Below are positions 28,484-39,212 of a stretch of DNA of 39,212 nucleotides, piece by piece. The DNA comes from Synergistales bacterium (GTDB lineage: Bacteria; Synergistota; Synergistia; Synergistales; Aminiphilaceae). A program made the position numbers and the translations under genes. Location of the stretch: NCBI GenBank assembly GCA_021736445.1, contig JAIPGA010000015.1, forward strand, positions 1-39,212. The letters are read 5' to 3'. Under the pieces are notes generated by a model. It was not told where the DNA came from. It did not search any database and was given only the letters and a program-made list of their open reading frames with translations. Within the stretch, counting starts at the first letter, position 1; each line of letters opens with the position of its first letter.

Positions 28484-29650
28484 CTAGATCCCCGCTGAAC
28501 GTATCCGTTCGGTCCGGCTGACTATCTCAGTGAGGCGAACACCGAAATTCTCATCTATGACGACGATCTCTCCCCGGGCGATCAGCTTGCCGTTGACGAG
28601 AAGGTCAACGGGTTCGCCAGCCATCTTTTCCAATTCTATCACAGAGCCCGGCGCCATATTGAGCACTTCTCCGATTGTTTTGCGAGTCCTGCCTAATTCA
28701 ACCGTCAACCGCACCGGTATGTCAAGGATCAGATCCAGATTTCCCGGCGCTTCACCCTGTTCTCCCTGATCGAGGGGCACAAACTCCGCAGGCCGCACAT
28801 CCACCTGCTGACCGCCGGCGGGCTGCCGGGCCGCTCCTCCGGCCGGGGCGCCTCCCGAGGGAGGCTGCTGTTGCTGTTTCTTCTGAGCCTGCTGCTGCGG
28901 TTGTTGCTGCTGTTGCTGCTGCTTTTGCTGTTGCGGCTGTTGCTGCTGTTGCGGCGCAGGCTCCTCCTGCTTCGGCGCCACGGCCTCCTGGATCCGACCG
29001 GCCAGGTCGGTGGCCTGGTCGAGGGGCAGCACAAACCACAGCGGCATCTCGCCGACCTCGCTGATGTTGAGTGTCCCACGCACAGCCCAGATCTGGGTGG
29101 ATGGATCAAGGGACTCCAGCGGCAGCCAGTCACCCTCCTGCAGACCCGCCGAGGCCTCGCCCTGGGCCAGGCGCTGTCCCTTGAGCAGTCCGCTGATGTT
29201 GGTGAAGGCCGCCCCCACCACCTGACTGAGCCCCTCCTGGGCAGCACTGAGGTAGAGATCGTTGGCCTCCTCGGGCAGCTCCACACCGTCGCCGCCCATC
29301 ATCAGATCCGCAACGGTGAGCGCCCCCTTTTCGTCCAGCACGAAGGCCGTGGGAGCGTCGTCAAGGCCGTCGCACTTCATGGCATAGCGGAAGAAGCGTC
29401 CCTCCCCCGCCCTGCCGGGAAACTCGTTCTGGGCCACCACAAAGGTCTCGTCGATGGAGGAGGTGATCTCCCGTCCCGCCAGCATACCGATCACATTGCT
29501 GCCGGCGTTGGCCACCAGGGACGCAACCTCGTTGAGGATATCCTCCTGCTCCTTGTCGAGACCGCCTCCCTCCCCTTCGGAGGAAGAGGAATCCGGCGCA
29601 CTGTTCAACAGCGCATCGATCTCTTCCTGGCTCAACAGCTCGTCAGACAA
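28484..29650 (-). CDS. fliY: Flagellar switch protein FliY (FliN C-terminal domain) with altered phosphatase sites
   Basis: The 388-residue protein has an N-terminal CheY-P-binding peptide (LSQEEIDALL), a CheC-like domain (about 35-225), a Gln-rich linker (about 230-262), and a C-terminal FliN/SpoA domain (about 305-388; IPVRLTVELGRT, VLNMAPGSVIELEK). At both expected phosphatase sites the Glu is kept but the Asn is Ser: E41-x2-S44 and E139-x2-S142. FliY builds the C ring, and in Bacillus it also removes phosphate from CheY-P. Here the second function is doubtful. The TTG start has a strong AGGAGGT site seven bases upstream. The gene lies just after fliM. Confidence 0.94.
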   Translation of the reverse strand: MSDELLSQEEIDALLNSAPDSSSSEGEGGGLDKEQEDILNEVASLVANAGSNVIGMLAGREITSSIDETFVVAQNEFPGRAGEGRFFRYAMKCDGLDDAPTAFVLDEKGALTVADLMMGGDGVELPEEANDLYLSAAQEGLSQVVGAAFTNISGLLKGQRLAQGEASAGLQEGDWLPLESLDPSTQIWAVRGTLNISEVGEMPLWFVLPLDQATDLAGRIQEAVAPKQEEPAPQQQQQPQQQKQQQQQQQPQQQAQKKQQQQPPSGGAPAGGAARQPAGGQQVDVRPAEFVPLDQGEQGEAPGNLDLILDIPVRLTVELGRTRKTIGEVLNMAPGSVIELEKMAGEPVDLLVNGKLIARGEIVVIDENFGVRLTEIVSRTERIRSAGI

Positions 29651-33031: not shown

Positions 33032-34936
33032 TTACCGTTTAAGGTTCACCGTCTCCTCCATCACCTCGTCGCTGGTGGTAATGATCCGGGCGTTGGCCTG
33101 GTAGCCCCGCTGGCCCCGGATGAGGTTGGTGAACTCCTGGGCGATATCCACGTTGGATGTCTCCAGGCTCATGCTCATCAGCTTGCCGGCCCGGCCCTCC
33201 GAAGGATTGCCCAGCTCGATGATCCCCGTGTTCGGTCCCTCCACGTAGACATTCTCGCCGGCCTTGCTGAGTCCGCCGGGGTTGTTGGCCAGCGCCAGCG
33301 GAATCCGGTAGAGCGGCACCGTCTGGCCGTTGTCGTAGATGCCCGAGACCCTGCCGTCCTGGCCGATCTGGTAGCTGGTCATCACGCCCATCCCGTGGCC
33401 GTCCTGGTAGTAGCCCTTGGTCGTGGAGGGAGAGGCGTACTGGGTAACCCCCTCGATGGGTTCCTTGTCGAAGTTGTCACCGTTGAAATCGAAGGTCACA
33501 CGGGTGGTCTCGGCTCCACCGGAACCGAAACCGATGCTCACAATGGGGTTCTCGGAGGTGATCGACCCCTGGCCGTCGAACGCCACCTCCCCGGTAGGCG
33601 GTTCGATGTTGAGTCCATCCTCGTCGGGGAAAGAAGCCCGCCACTGCCACCGGTCGGCGCCGATCTTCTCCCAGCGCATCTCCATGGTGTGAGCTGTCCC
33701 CAGCGAGTCGTAGACCTGTGTCTGGCTGACATGGACACCGGTATCCCGCTGGGTGATCCGGGCCACCTCGCCTTCCTCATCGTGGGGCAGATTCTGGTCG
33801 CTGTTGAAGACCACCGATCTGCCGTCCTCTGAGATAGTCGCCGTCAGATCACCTTCGGGGGTGGTGATGGTCCCCTCATAGTTCGTTCCGAAGCTCCCGT
33901 CCGGATTGAGCGGGATCTCCTCGGGAAAGGCATAGACATTCCCCTCGTGATCCCAGAGTGTCAATGTAGCGGCGTCACCATCGGCATTGAGACTGAAATC
34001 GGCGAGGAAGCTCCTTGTAGCCTGATTCTCGTAGGAGACCGAGAGACTCTTGTAATCCATGGCGTCGCTGAGATTCATCTTGATGTCGTGACCTTCACCG
34101 GCGCCATCGATATCGGGGATCGTCAGCATACCTGTCTCGCTGTCGAAGGTGAAATCGGCTCCCGAGAGTTCCGGCAGGCCTGTCTCGGTATTCACCCCGT
34201 CAAACTGGGCCTTCAGATTGGACTGCTGTTCGTTGCCGTCCGCATCGGTCCAGCTAACATCAAAGGTAACAAAATCGTCGGTAGTATCCCCTTCAAGAAG
34301 ATCAATTTCGTAGGTGGTTCCATCCACTGTATCCTGGAGTGTCACGTCCTCACCCACTCCAAGGGGCAGGTACATATCCAGCCGGCTGTCCAGATTGCAG
34401 CGGAAGCCCACCAGCGAGGTCTCCTCGCCGGGCTGCTTGGACCCCAGGGGCATACTGATGCTGGAGAGCTGCCCCGTGGAGATATAGCTCCCCGGGTTCT
34501 GGCTGTCCTCCTCCATGGCATAGCCCTGAAGGGTATGGCCCGTTCCCGCCTGGACCATGGTGTTGTTGGCGTCCAGCGTGAAATTGCCGGCCCGGGTGTA
34601 GAGGGAACGGCCGTCGCCATCCCTGAGCATATAGTAGCCGTCGCCCTGGATGGCGATCTCGTTGGGGTTGCCGGTGTACTCCACATTCCCCTGGCTGTAG
34701 ACCGTCTCGATGGCGCCCACCCGGGAGCCCATCCCGATCTGCATGGGGTTCACGCCGCCGCGGCTCCCGCTGGGGGCGTGGCCGCCGTGGGTGGTCTGGT
34801 AGAAGATCTCCTGGAAGCTCACCTCGTGCCGCTTGTAGCCAAGGGTCTCCACATTGGCCACATTGTTGCCGATCGTATCAAGGAAGGTCTGGTAGCTCTT
34901 GAGCCCCATGACCCCCGAAAGCAGGGATCGCTGCAT
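33032..34936 (-). CDS. flgE: Flagellar hook protein FlgE, second copy (634 residues)
   Basis: The protein has the rod/hook N-terminal signature (LDTIGNNVANVETLGYKR), the flanking TRAGNFTLDANN segment, a long variable middle part (about 200-400), and the C-terminal helix SNVDIAQEFTNLIRGQRGYQANARI. Its only Cys (C180) sits in RCNLDS, exactly 13 residues after K167, with N181 next. As I recall, this spacing matches the lysinoalanine crosslink residues of spirochaete hook protein. The ATG at 34936 has AGGAG nine bases upstream; a GTG two codons earlier is less likely. It follows flgD and precedes flbD, the usual position of the main hook gene. Confidence 0.94.
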   Translation of the reverse strand: MQRSLLSGVMGLKSYQTFLDTIGNNVANVETLGYKRHEVSFQEIFYQTTHGGHAPSGSRGGVNPMQIGMGSRVGAIETVYSQGNVEYTGNPNEIAIQGDGYYMLRDGDGRSLYTRAGNFTLDANNTMVQAGTGHTLQGYAMEEDSQNPGSYISTGQLSSISMPLGSKQPGEETSLVGFRCNLDSRLDMYLPLGVGEDVTLQDTVDGTTYEIDLLEGDTTDDFVTFDVSWTDADGNEQQSNLKAQFDGVNTETGLPELSGADFTFDSETGMLTIPDIDGAGEGHDIKMNLSDAMDYKSLSVSYENQATRSFLADFSLNADGDAATLTLWDHEGNVYAFPEEIPLNPDGSFGTNYEGTITTPEGDLTATISEDGRSVVFNSDQNLPHDEEGEVARITQRDTGVHVSQTQVYDSLGTAHTMEMRWEKIGADRWQWRASFPDEDGLNIEPPTGEVAFDGQGSITSENPIVSIGFGSGGAETTRVTFDFNGDNFDKEPIEGVTQYASPSTTKGYYQDGHGMGVMTSYQIGQDGRVSGIYDNGQTVPLYRIPLALANNPGGLSKAGENVYVEGPNTGIIELGNPSEGRAGKLMSMSLETSNVDIAQEFTNLIRGQRGYQANARIITTSDEVMEETVNLKR

Positions 34937-34980
34937 GGTCACTCACTCCTTGTCGTCCGCGCTCTGCCGTCTCCGTCCCC

Positions 34981-35400
34981 TCAGGAGACAGAGACGATGT
35001 TGTCCAGGACGGTGCTGTTTTCCTCACCCACATCGAGGATCACCTGGCCCTGGTCGAAGCGGATGCCCGTCACCTCGCCGGAGACCCGTTCGCCCTCGCC
35101 GTCGATGTACTCCACTGTCCGCCCCAGGTACCCCACCGAGGAGGAGAGGGAGACCCTGGTCAGGTTGTCCAGGCTTTCGCTCATGTTGGTGATCTGCTCC
35201 AGTTCGCTGAACTGGGCCATCTGGGAGATGAACTCCTTGTCCTTCATGGGGTCCATGGGGTCCTGGTTGGTCAGCTGGGTGATCAGGATCTCCAGAAAGT
35301 CGTCCTTCCCCAGACTGGAGTTCCCCGTAGTGGACTGCTGCTCTCCACCGGTGCCGTTGCTCATCATCTCGGCGCCGTTGACGCCTGTGCTCTGGATCAT
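34981..35400 (-). CDS. flgD: Flagellar hook-capping protein FlgD
   Basis: The 139-residue protein is a short FlgD. The conserved N-terminal half holds DFLEILITQLTNQDPMDPM, EFISQMAQFSELEQI and a helix leading to the YLGRTVEYIDGEG beta segment. It caps the growing hook and guides FlgE assembly. The large C-terminal FnIII/tudor domains of enteric FlgD are reduced, as in many Firmicutes. The ATG has AGGGG eight bases upstream. It lies between two hook genes, which is unusual. Confidence 0.93.
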   Translation of the reverse strand: MIQSTGVNGAEMMSNGTGGEQQSTTGNSSLGKDDFLEILITQLTNQDPMDPMKDKEFISQMAQFSELEQITNMSESLDNLTRVSLSSSVGYLGRTVEYIDGEGERVSGEVTGIRFDQGQVILDVGEENSTVLDNIVSVS

Positions 35401-35472
35401 GCCACTCACCCCTTATACTCAGGTGTCTGCTGCTCTATTCGGGAGCGCGCCCCGAAAGGGCCGCCGATCTGT

Positions 35473-37806
35473 TTACCGCTTGAGGTTCACCAGCTCCTCC
35501 AGGACACTGTCGGAGGTGGTCACCACCCGGGCGTTGGCCTGGAAGCCCCGCTGCCCCTTGATGAGACTGGTGAACTGCTGGGAGAGATCCACGTTGGACA
35601 TCTCCAGCGACTGGCCGGCGATCTTGCCGGAACCGCCCTGGGTGGCCGGCACATCCTGGGGCACGCCGGAGTTGGAGGTCTTCATGAAGGTGGTGTCGCC
35701 CACCTTCTGCAGCCCCTGTGGATTGGTGAAGAGCGCCAGGGCCATCCGGTAGAGCGCCTTGTTCTCGCCGTTGTCGTAGACACCGGTGATGGTGCCGTCC
35801 TGGCTGATGGAGAAGTCCTCCAGCACGCCCATGCTGTAGCCGTCCTGGTAGTACCCCTTGGTGGTGAACTCCGATCCGTACTGGGTGACACCCTCGATCT
35901 CGTCTTCATTGAAGGATTCCCCGGTGAAGTCCAGGGTGATCTCCTCGTCCTCGGCGCCCAGGGAGGCGAAGTTCGCCGTGATCGGCCCGGGGTTGCTCTC
36001 GGAGGTGATCAGACCGTCGGCGTTGAACTCGATGATGCCGGTGTTGCTGGACAGCGCGATGCTCTCGTCGGGAAACCAGGCCCGCCACCGCCACTGGTTG
36101 TTGTCGATCTTCTCGAAGCTCGTCTCCAGTACGTGGGCGTTGCCCTGGCTGTCGTAGATGTCGATCTTCGTGGCGTGGACGCTGGCGATCCGCTGGGAGA
36201 CCGACGCCAGCTGCTCGTCCTCGGCGTTGTTCGTGATATTGATTGATTTGTAGTCGGAGGAGAGGGTGAGATGGCAGGCACTCCCACTCGCTGTAACCGG
36301 AACCCCTTCTTCTCCTAGAAATATAGTACTGGTCGCCGTGTTCCCCGCGCAAAATGTATACGTTCCATCAATCTCAAAGGTTCCATCATCTTTGGTTTCA
36401 ATCGCTACAGGACTGCCGGAGTCATCTGAGGCATAATACTGCGTCCCCTCTTCTGACCAGAGGATCATTCCACGATCGCTTTTATCACCGCTCAAATCAA
36501 CACTCGTATCATCAGAGAGAGTTCCGTTGTCACCTGTTACTGTATCGCTAGTTCCCCCAAAAGCAGTTAATATCGTTGATGTATCGCTATTAGTGTTAAC
36601 CAAAGCCTCGACATCCGCACCAGTTGAAGTTATACTACTTACAGAATCAGTGCCCAAAGCAATATCGATTGTTTTGGTAAGATTATTTACTGATGTGACT
36701 TCTAAATCCTGATCTGCTCCGACAGGATCATTCAGCTTAACAGTCCACTCTCCAGCTGCACCAGAAATGTTTGATACAAAGTTAACTTCCGTGAGTTCAA
36801 GTTCAGAATAAAGCTCCAGGCTTTCCTGGTCCCCCTGGATTGTTTGCGCAAGAAACTTCTTATCTCCAATAGTCACGCTATCGAAATCAAGAATTTGGGC
36901 TATATTAAAGGACCACTTCTCGAATGTCGCCCCTCCACCGGTTTCCTCTATCGTTATTTCACCTGTTTCTGCATTGTAGCTGACTTCTCCTGAACCTATA
37001 TCATCGAAAATGCCATCACCCTGAGAAACCACGGAATCGTAGCTCAGTTCAGGCAACCCTGAGGTGGAATTGATGCCATCAAAGGAGAGATTCAGTTTCC
37101 CATGCTCTCCTCCCTCACCCGCGTTGATCGTAATAAAGCTGTCGCTTGTCAAACTACTGGAAAAGTTCAGGGAGTAGCTTGTCCCATCCACCGTCGCCGT
37201 AGATGTCACGTCGTTCTCATCGAGTCCCATGGGGAGATAGTCCTCCACGCGGCTGTCGAGGTTGCAGCGGTAGCCCACGGTGGTGGTCTCCTGGGCCTCC
37301 ATCTTCTGCCCCACGGGGATGTTGATGTTGTCCAGGGAGCTGCTGAGGACCAGCGAGGTGTCGGTCTCCGAGGCCTGCTCGTAGGCGTAGCCCTGGAGCA
37401 TGTACCCGGTGCCGGACTGGACGAGGTTGCCGCCGGCGTCCTTGACGAAGTTGCCCGCCCGGGTGTACATGCTGGCCTGGCCGTTTTTGACGACAAAGTA
37501 GCCGTCGCCGTCGATGGCCATGTCGGTGGAGTTGCCGGTGTACTCCAGATTCCCCTGGGTGTGGATGGTCTCGATGGCGGCGGTCTTGGCGCCCATGCCG
37601 ACCTGCTTGGGGTCGATCCCGCCGGTACCCGCGTCCTCGTCGGGCGCCACGGCGCCCCCCATGTCCTGATAGAGCATGTCCGCGAAGTTGGTGATGGATT
37701 TCTTGAATCCCACGGAGTTGACGTTGGCGATGTTGTTGCCCACCACGTCAAGGTAGGTTGTGTGTGTCCTGATGCCGCTCACGCCTGCCATCAATGAACG
37801 TAGCAT
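35473..37806 (-). CDS. flgE: Flagellar hook protein FlgE, first copy (777 residues), with an AT-rich interior
   Basis: The protein has the hook N-terminal signature (LDVVGNNIANVNSVGFKK), TRAGNFVKDAGG, and the C-terminal SNVDLSQQFTSLIKGQRGFQANARV. The centre is much longer than in typical FlgE. Residues about 226-499 are encoded by AT-rich DNA unlike the flanks, yet the frame stays open. K168, C181 and N182 repeat the K-x12-C-N arrangement of the other copy. Two further Cys residues, C486 and C511, lie at or just beyond the edge of the AT-rich part. The ATG has AGGAGG nine bases upstream. It follows fliK by 112 bases and precedes flgD. It could be a second hook or a distal hook component. Confidence 0.92.
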   Translation of the reverse strand: MLRSLMAGVSGIRTHTTYLDVVGNNIANVNSVGFKKSITNFADMLYQDMGGAVAPDEDAGTGGIDPKQVGMGAKTAAIETIHTQGNLEYTGNSTDMAIDGDGYFVVKNGQASMYTRAGNFVKDAGGNLVQSGTGYMLQGYAYEQASETDTSLVLSSSLDNINIPVGQKMEAQETTTVGYRCNLDSRVEDYLPMGLDENDVTSTATVDGTSYSLNFSSSLTSDSFITINAGEGGEHGKLNLSFDGINSTSGLPELSYDSVVSQGDGIFDDIGSGEVSYNAETGEITIEETGGGATFEKWSFNIAQILDFDSVTIGDKKFLAQTIQGDQESLELYSELELTEVNFVSNISGAAGEWTVKLNDPVGADQDLEVTSVNNLTKTIDIALGTDSVSSITSTGADVEALVNTNSDTSTILTAFGGTSDTVTGDNGTLSDDTSVDLSGDKSDRGMILWSEEGTQYYASDDSGSPVAIETKDDGTFEIDGTYTFCAGNTATSTIFLGEEGVPVTASGSACHLTLSSDYKSINITNNAEDEQLASVSQRIASVHATKIDIYDSQGNAHVLETSFEKIDNNQWRWRAWFPDESIALSSNTGIIEFNADGLITSESNPGPITANFASLGAEDEEITLDFTGESFNEDEIEGVTQYGSEFTTKGYYQDGYSMGVLEDFSISQDGTITGVYDNGENKALYRMALALFTNPQGLQKVGDTTFMKTSNSGVPQDVPATQGGSGKIAGQSLEMSNVDLSQQFTSLIKGQRGFQANARVVTTSDSVLEELVNLKR
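36310..37130 (-). other. AT-rich segment inside the first hook gene
   Basis: Base composition changes sharply within the gene. Hand counts give 23 of 60 G+C for 36541-36600 and 20 of 60 for 36661-36720, against 39 of 60 for 37501-37560 in the same gene. The segment encodes a Ser/Thr/Asp-rich part of the exposed hook domain. The boundaries are approximate. The change suggests that this domain was acquired or exchanged by recombination. Confidence 0.75.
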
Positions 37807-37918: not shown

Positions 37919-39212
37919 CTAGGCCACCCAGTGGAGGACGCCGCGTTCCAGATCGAGCTGCGCCTCCAGGGCGGTTTCGTCCTCTTCGGTCTCGTCGCCG
38001 TCGCGCCGGAAGGCGCCGTTTTTGCCTCTCTGCCCCTTGCCTGTGCCCGCACCGTTCTGCTGGTAGGGGCTCTGGTGCTCCTCCTGCTGGCGGACGTCCA
38101 CGGAGAGCTCCGAGATCTCCACGCCCTGCTGCTGCAGGGTGTTGCGCAGCTCGCCGAGCTGGCCCTGCACGGCCTGTTTCAGCGCCTCGGAGTCTACACG
38201 CAGGGTGGCCTCGATGCCGCCCTGGGTGGAACGCAGGCTCACATCCACACGGCCCAGGGCGGGCGGCTCCACGACGATCCGGGCGCGGTGGCCGTCGGCG
38301 GTGGAGACAAATCGGACCACCCGGGCCACGCCCTGGTTGAAGGCGGCCATACCGCGCCCGGGGAGCGGGATGCTCTGCTGCCGCGGAGCGGCGGAGCGTT
38401 CGGGTGCGCTGTGGTTCCGGCTCTCGGCGGTCTGCGTGCCCTCCCTGGCAGTCTGCTGTTGCGCTGTCTGCTGTTCGCCCTGTTCGCGGGCGAGGGTGCC
38501 GTCGAAGCCCCGGGGGGCAGCGCGCTCGCCGCCGGTCTGCTCCTGGTCCGGCATGCTCTGCTGCCGGTCGCTCATCTGGGCGTCGGCGCTGTTCTGTCGG
38601 GTTCCCCTGTCACCGGTCCCCTGGGTGTGGGCCCCTTCTGTCTGCTGTTCCTGCCCGGCGGCCCGGACCTGTGCAGGCTCCGCCGCGCTCCGCTGTCGGT
38701 CGGTCACCGTTTTGGTGGCTGTTGCCTCCGTGGTCGCCGCGTCGGCCCCTGGCTGCCCTGTGGTCTGTTTCTCGGGCGCAGTGCCCTGGATCGTTTGCGG
38801 TTGCGGTGCATTGGGTTGCGGCCGGGCGGCAGCCTCGCTAGGCCCTGTGGCCTGTCTCGCGGCCGCTTCCGTCACGGTGCCGCCAACCGGCTCTGTCTGT
38901 ACGGTCGTCGGCTGCTGCCGGGCCTGATCGGTCTTCGCGTCGTTTGGCGTGGTCTCCGCGGCGGTCTGGGGTGTCCCCTGCCGCACCGTTGCGGGCCGTT
39001 CCGCGGCTGTCCTGTTTTCTGCGGTCTGGGCCGCGCCGTTCCCTGCAGCCTGCGAAGCGACCGGACGTACCGGCTGTCCGCTGCTGCGGAGAGAAGGCCG
39101 GGCCTGATCGGTCTTCGCGTCGTTTGGCGTGGTCTCCGCGGCGGTCTGGGGTGTCCCCTGCCGCACCGTTGCGGGCCGTTCCGCGGCTGTCCTGTTTTCT
39201 GCGGTCTGGGCC
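37919..39212 (-). CDS. fliK: Flagellar hook-length control protein FliK (5' end outside the window)
   Basis: At least 430 residues are visible. The N-terminal part is low-complexity and disordered, rich in Gln, Thr, Ala, Pro and Glu, as expected for the FliK ruler. The C-terminal Flg_hook domain (last 150 residues) holds GRVDVSLRSTQGGIEATLRV and LGELRNTLQQQGVEISELSV, followed by a charged tail ending VLHWVA. FliK measures hook length and, through FlhB, switches export to filament substrates. The visible ruler contains a 60-residue repeat encoded by identical DNA. The start lies beyond 39212. A gap of 112 bases separates it from the first flgE. Confidence 0.92.
   Translation of the reverse strand, partial: AQTAENRTAAERPATVRQGTPQTAAETTPNDAKTDQARPSLRSSGQPVRPVASQAAGNGAAQTAENRTAAERPATVRQGTPQTAAETTPNDAKTDQARQQPTTVQTEPVGGTVTEAAARQATGPSEAAARPQPNAPQPQTIQGTAPEKQTTGQPGADAATTEATATKTVTDRQRSAAEPAQVRAAGQEQQTEGAHTQGTGDRGTRQNSADAQMSDRQQSMPDQEQTGGERAAPRGFDGTLAREQGEQQTAQQQTAREGTQTAESRNHSAPERSAAPRQQSIPLPGRGMAAFNQGVARVVRFVSTADGHRARIVVEPPALGRVDVSLRSTQGGIEATLRVDSEALKQAVQGQLGELRNTLQQQGVEISELSVDVRQQEEHQSPYQQNGAGTGKGQRGKNGAFRRDGDETEEDETALEAQLDLERGVLHWVA
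38917..39032 (-). repeat. Direct repeat copy 1 within fliK (180-bp period)
   Basis: This stretch is identical, base for base, to 39097-39212, with an exact offset of 180 bases (60 codons), so the reading frame is preserved. It encodes the segment with RQGTPQTAAETTPNDAK and TDQAR. The intervening 64 bases (39033-39096) have no second copy on the other side. Confidence 0.95.
39097..39212 (-). repeat. Direct repeat copy 2 within fliK, cut by the window edge
   Basis: This is the second copy of the 180-base-period repeat. It runs to the last base of the window without a mismatch, so the full unit and the copy number cannot be seen. The absence of any difference indicates a recent duplication or ongoing homogenisation. 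Confidence 0.95.

Follow-up and report, generated by a model that had tools for sequence, protein, structure and literature searches.

The window, i.e. the whole stretch of 39,212 nucleotides analysed in this work, carries on its minus strand a flagellar gene cluster in the order fliK, flgE1, flgD, flgE2, motA, motB, fliL, fliM and fliN, followed by export genes; the window features described below are on this strand. The gene of the hook length control protein FliK (37919-39211; PF02120, 2e-16) is interrupted at the window end, and at this end of the contig it contains a perfect 116-nt direct repeat (38917-39032 and 39097-39212, spacing 180), which is either a genuine repeat or an assembly effect. 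The FliN homologue (28484-29650) has a long Gln-rich low-complexity stretch ahead of its C-ring domain. The gene of the hook cap, flgD (34981-35409; PF03963, 4.1e-24), sits between two genes coding for hook proteins, flgE1 (35473-37806; 777 amino acids, Pfam and NCBIfam matches) and flgE2 (33032-34942). FlgE2 has 636 amino acids if translated from GTG 34942 and 634 if translated from the likelier start ATG 34936, whose position in the alignment agrees with where FlgE1 and Treponema denticola FlgE begin. We number FlgE2 from this ATG; residues 167, 180 and 181 become 169, 182 and 183 in the longer ORF. FlgE2 contains the Pfam domains Flg_bb_rod, LlgE_F_G_D1, FlgE_D2 and Flg_bbr_C, and matches TIGR03506 with 269 bits. 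Both proteins are identified as the flagellar hook protein FlgE by their domains (rod N-terminal, D1, FlgE_D2, rod C-terminal) and by the hook-operon context, with fliK and flgD adjoining the pair. A relative (G001, contig C112) also has two flgE-type matches, ordered as in the window, and the duplication of flgE around flgD seems to be common to the family.

The first-pass annotation of this DNA drew attention to FlgE2, in which it noticed a Lys and a Cys resembling the residues that form the lysinoalanine cross-link between the hook subunits of T. denticola. We compared the window proteins with T. denticola FlgE (L278, near-identical to PDB 6NDX chain B), taking the roles of the residues from PMC10691653 and PMC9254593. 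In the spirochaete protein K165 of domain D1 reacts with C178 of domain D2 in the neighbouring subunit (PMC9254593); roles are assigned to K165, C178 and N179, and T334 and K336 are also marked in the published alignment (PMC10691653). Counted from the first Met, the L278 sequence has K165, C178 and, within STTKAYEQDG, T334-T335-K336, thus the positions given in the first-pass annotation for Lys165 and Cys178, 13 residues apart, were right.

The description of FlgE2 was likewise accurate. Lys167 (codon AAG, 34436-34438) is the counterpart of the amine donor K165, Cys180 (TGC, 34397-34399), which is the sole Cys of the protein, corresponds to the dehydroalanine precursor C178, and Asn181 (AAT, 34394-34396) corresponds to N179; the minus-strand codons place Lys and Cys exactly 13 residues apart. 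The alignment with T. denticola FlgE, which had been proposed as a check, is ungapped over the motif and pairs K167, C180 and N181 with K165, C178 and N179. It also reveals counterparts of the other two marked residues: TTKGYYQDG of FlgE2 aligns with TTKAYEQDG, making Thr505 (33422-33424) the equivalent of T334 and Lys507 (33416-33418) that of K336, a position occupied by Ala in the T. denticola FlgE chain 6ndv_B. The motif had been presented as a feature of the second hook protein. It is present there, but it is not peculiar to FlgE2, since FlgE1 has the same triad, Lys168 (37303-37305), Cys181 (37264-37266) and Asn182 (37261-37263), and also the TTK sequence with Thr648 (35863-35865) and Lys650 (35857-35859) at the T334 and K336 positions. 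Over 27 residues the FlgE1 motif NINIPVGQKMEAQETTTVGYRCNLDSR aligns with T. denticola FlgE without gaps, and of the two window proteins it is the closer one to T. denticola in this segment. FlgE2 is only 42% identical to FlgE1 and has a longer end branch in the tree (0.76 vs 0.32), yet it has retained all five residues. The genome also encodes, close to fliI and fliJ on contig C96, a third FlgE-like protein (L398:3658-5097), in which Cys-Asn is kept, Thr occupies the Lys site, and the second Lys is absent (T.R type).

An AF2 monomer model of FlgE2 (31-row alignment, mean pLDDT 77.9, approximately 90 around the site) places C180 inside the strand formed by residues 175-183 and K167 immediately before this strand, a predicted arrangement that agrees with the location of Lys at the end of D1 and of Cys in D2. 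A Foldseek search with the model returned hook proteins, among them two T. denticola structures: 6NDX, a dimer joined by lysinoalanine, and 6NDT, the form with dehydroalanine. The TM-scores over the whole chain were modest, as expected for a protein in which domains are extra or differently placed.

To see how widespread the site is in Synergistota, the phylum to which the window's genome belongs, we surveyed 188 genomes without using a pattern; 118 were readable at the site and one further genome was masked. A Lys-x12-Cys-Asn FlgE was found in 111 of the 118 genomes, three (G152, G156, G160) had Lys/Ser in place of Lys/Cys, and four (G106, G110, G112, G114) had lost both Lys and Cys. At the level of sequences, the motif occupied homologous sites in 129 of the 146 FlgE rows, which, together with the reversed-pattern control (0/188 genomes, compared with 63/188 matched by the strict DNA pattern), shows that its occurrence is beyond chance. 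In the N-terminal alignment 139 of the 146 rows (95%) have Cys at this site, and no other column contains more than 19 Cys. Among the 99 triad rows that were read at both ends, 92 have T.K and two have S.K at the T334/K336 positions.

In four rows the Cys is replaced by Asn or Gly, and each of these rows also lacks the Lys. They occupy at least two or three places on the tree, with relatives having the Lys-Cys pair in between, which points to at least two or three events of joint loss; a phylogenetically independent test of this co-loss, based on two to three pairs, pointed mostly in the same direction and did not reach significance. Ten paralogous rows, on the other hand, keep the Cys and have Val, Thr, Ser or Glu at the Lys site. 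Several genomes with two FlgE proteins combine a copy that keeps the Cys but carries Val or Ser instead of the Lys with a copy having the Lys: L190/L237 (G150), L208/L234 (G154), L205/L236 (G159), L210/L233 (G155) and L219 with L232 (G160). The two proteins of G160 are complementary, one being Lys/Ser and the other Val/Cys.

The DNA pattern P-x-G-Q-K-x12-C-N-L-D, scanned over 84,980 species, gave 73 stretches, which were read individually. These comprised 46 Synergistota and 16 Spirochaetota FlgEs, two from one Zixibacteria-like phylum, one each from Cloacimonadota, KSB1 and a 'Dehalococcoidia' contig, and six that were not FlgE; matches in Bacteroidales, Ruminiclostridium, Rhodobacteraceae and a proteobacterium were discarded on reading for this reason. 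The 'Dehalococcoidia' contig (AUK305; L054, L249) was also rejected as an additional phylum: in the tree its FlgE falls next to that of a Synergistota genome, and the contig is therefore probably misbinned.

Other phyla were sampled as far as they could be reached from the loci in hand. Spirochaetota rows have K-C-N in 43 and K-S-N in three of 46 cases. K-C-N was found in both Zixibacteria and both Cloacimonadota rows, and in five of 29 KSB1 rows, the rest of which have K-G-N (15) or other combinations (9). None of the 32 sampled Bacillota rows has Cys at the site, and no K-C-N was seen in the phylum sampled around an uncultured proteobacterium (G198). When the C-terminal half was added, K-C-N proved to be accompanied by T.K or S.K in most rows of Synergistota (94 of 99) and of Spirochaetota (34 of 37); the K336 site is mostly Val or Ile in KSB1, Zixibacteria and Cloacimonadota, and the pair of Thr and second Lys was not seen in the sampled Bacillota or KSB1. 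Among the phyla sampled, the full five-residue set was found only in Synergistota and Spirochaetota. The Asn matters less in this comparison, because Asn at the N179 site is near-universal among FlgEs and its match adds little. Many KSB1 FlgEs (loci L365-L389) retain the lysine of GQK although Gly stands where the Cys would be, thus the Lys may have preceded the Cys in evolution.

The genome from which the window derives encodes FlgH (6.6e-47) and FlgI (2e-136), i.e. the L- and P-rings, thus its flagella are external and the organism is a diderm with flagella crossing the outer membrane, not one in which, as in spirochaetes, the L-ring is missing and the flagellum stays within the periplasm. 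FlgH was found in 124 of the 188 Synergistota genomes, and lateral flagella have been described for Thermanaerovibrio and Dethiosulfovibrio, two members of the phylum (PMC3035242, PMC3035263). In the FlgE tree the Spirochaetota sequences are united in one clade (99) and those of Synergistales in another (96). The window proteins group with Synergistales and do not nest inside the spirochaete clade, and a recent transfer from spirochaetes is not supported by these separate clades. The deepest Synergistota family sampled has K-C-N, although in a quick tree with weak deep branches it lies apart from the other Synergistota. The five-residue site may go back to common ancestry, to an old transfer or to convergence, alternatives between which the backbone of the tree is too weak to choose.

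How should the conservation of these residues be explained? A Lys at a given offset from a single Cys is not uncommon in one protein, which would speak for a compositional coincidence. The motif recurs, however, at equivalent sites of the protein in 111 of 118 genomes and in the two paralogues of the window, and outside six chance matches the strict pattern picked out FlgEs of a few groups from 84,980 species; conservation across the phylum rules out a chance match, and we give this explanation practically no weight. A more serious alternative is a packing role, in which Cys and Lys would be kept for their contacts at the D1-D2 linker or at the subunit interface (a hydrogen bond, a salt bridge or, at times, a disulfide) and lysinoalanine would not be formed. 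The 15 KSB1 rows with Gly at the Cys site imply that in this phylum the Lys is of use even when the Cys is absent, and some Synergistota paralogues have retained the Cys but not the Lys; it follows that neither residue is conserved just for this pair, an observation that also counts against cross-linking, as does the small number of independent events behind the co-loss of Lys and Cys. Packing would nevertheless have to account for a Cys which is 95% conserved, always stands beside Asn, is nearly always accompanied by T.K, and corresponds, residue for residue, to the reactive site of T. denticola. It would also have to account for the replacement of Cys by Ser in one group with retention of the Lys, as in Leptospira, and for the finding that Cys changes to Asn or Gly solely together with loss of the Lys. 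The disulfide version has the additional difficulty that two Cys must meet, whereas the site has one conserved Cys and the organisms are strict anaerobes. On balance we regard packing as unlikely.

It could also be imagined that dehydroalanine is formed at the Cys but that the links are mainly heterotypic, with Lys-only and Cys-only paralogues complementing each other. The Lys/Ser and Val/Cys proteins of G160 would suit such an arrangement, and so would the three FlgE-like proteins encoded by the window's genome, of which two carry all five residues and the third has Cys-Asn and Thr at the Lys site. Most genomes, however, have a FlgE with both residues, which would be sufficient alone, and we consider predominantly heterotypic linkage very improbable.

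We think that FlgE1 and FlgE2 self-catalyse covalent inter-subunit cross-links like those of spirochaete FlgE, and put the probability of this reading at roughly 0.77; the chemistry is suggested by homology and conservation. The substitution of Cys by Ser with the Lys kept and the retention of all five residues in the strongly diverged FlgE2 both argue for it. By analogy with T. denticola, C180 in D2 would lose H2S by beta-elimination after hook assembly and become dehydroalanine, to which the amine of K167, at the end of D1 in the adjacent subunit, would add to yield lysinoalanine, with N181, T505 and K507 shaping the reactive site. Both reaction steps, elimination and addition, are what we infer for these proteins, together with a mechanical role: the hook would become a single covalent tube on an external flagellum. 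The suggestion of the first-pass annotation that lysinoalanine-type hooks exist outside spirochaetes, in a diderm without periplasmic flagella, has thus gained support from the ungapped alignment, the T334 and K336 counterparts, the conservation of the site across Synergistota and the presence of L- and P-rings, the bond itself being predicted from homology. We know of no cross-link or mass spectrum reported for any Synergistota hook. Our literature search, outside which lay most subscription papers and all preprints, found no paper connecting lysinoalanine or FlgE cross-linking with Synergistota.

Lysinoalanine cross-linking has been treated as a spirochaete trait linked to periplasmic flagella (PMC10691653), its absence from external flagella has been raised explicitly as a question (PMC4032328), and the reaction has been proposed as a spirochaete-specific drug target. 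In a 2023 survey FlgE sequences were collected from all bacteria, but the analysis was confined to spirochaetes. The covalent weld of the hook, thought to be restricted to spirochaetes, is probably more widespread; what appears to be new here is the predicted site of a known mechanism in a new phylum and in a new cellular context, that of external flagella. The Synergistota site challenges the view of the weld as an adaptation to the periplasmic flagellum, and a full reactive site across an externally flagellated anaerobic phylum would alter the explanation of its purpose. Synergistota would supply culturable organisms for comparison, and inhibitors of cross-linking would then not be spirochaete-specific. 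More tentatively, and with rather less than even confidence, we can imagine that welded hooks were not invented by spirochaetes for periplasmic flagella but are ancient in several diderm phyla, that the ancestor of Synergistota already had them, as perhaps did those of Spirochaetota and some FCB-group lineages, and that they serve the external flagella of Synergistota partly via heterotypic links between duplicated hook proteins.

It is worth setting the window proteins beside the known hook proteins. With the FlgEs of Campylobacter jejuni and Salmonella (5JXL, 6JZT) they share the family and the fold; the C. jejuni protein, however, has Ala at the Cys site and, according to the alignment, no Lys at -13. 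The Lys-x12-Cys-Asn motif is shared with some KSB1 FlgEs and with all four Zixibacteria and Cloacimonadota rows, but these groups mostly have Val or Ile at the K336 site. In Leptospira FlgE Ser replaces Cys and lysinoalanine still forms (PMC10691653), a situation resembling the three Lys-x12-Ser-Asn genomes of Synergistota and differing from the window proteins, which have Cys. The closest parallel is T. denticola FlgE, which is homologous, has the five residues at aligned positions and shows the same Lys-Cys spacing of 13. The cross-link has been demonstrated in Treponema, whereas the window FlgEs are likened to it by sequence. They are longer (636 and 777 vs 463 amino acids), with extra outer-domain sequence, and their gene, unlike that of T. 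denticola, is duplicated around flgD. Finally, the T. denticola hook is periplasmic, whereas the hooks encoded in the window belong to a flagellum with L- and P-rings.
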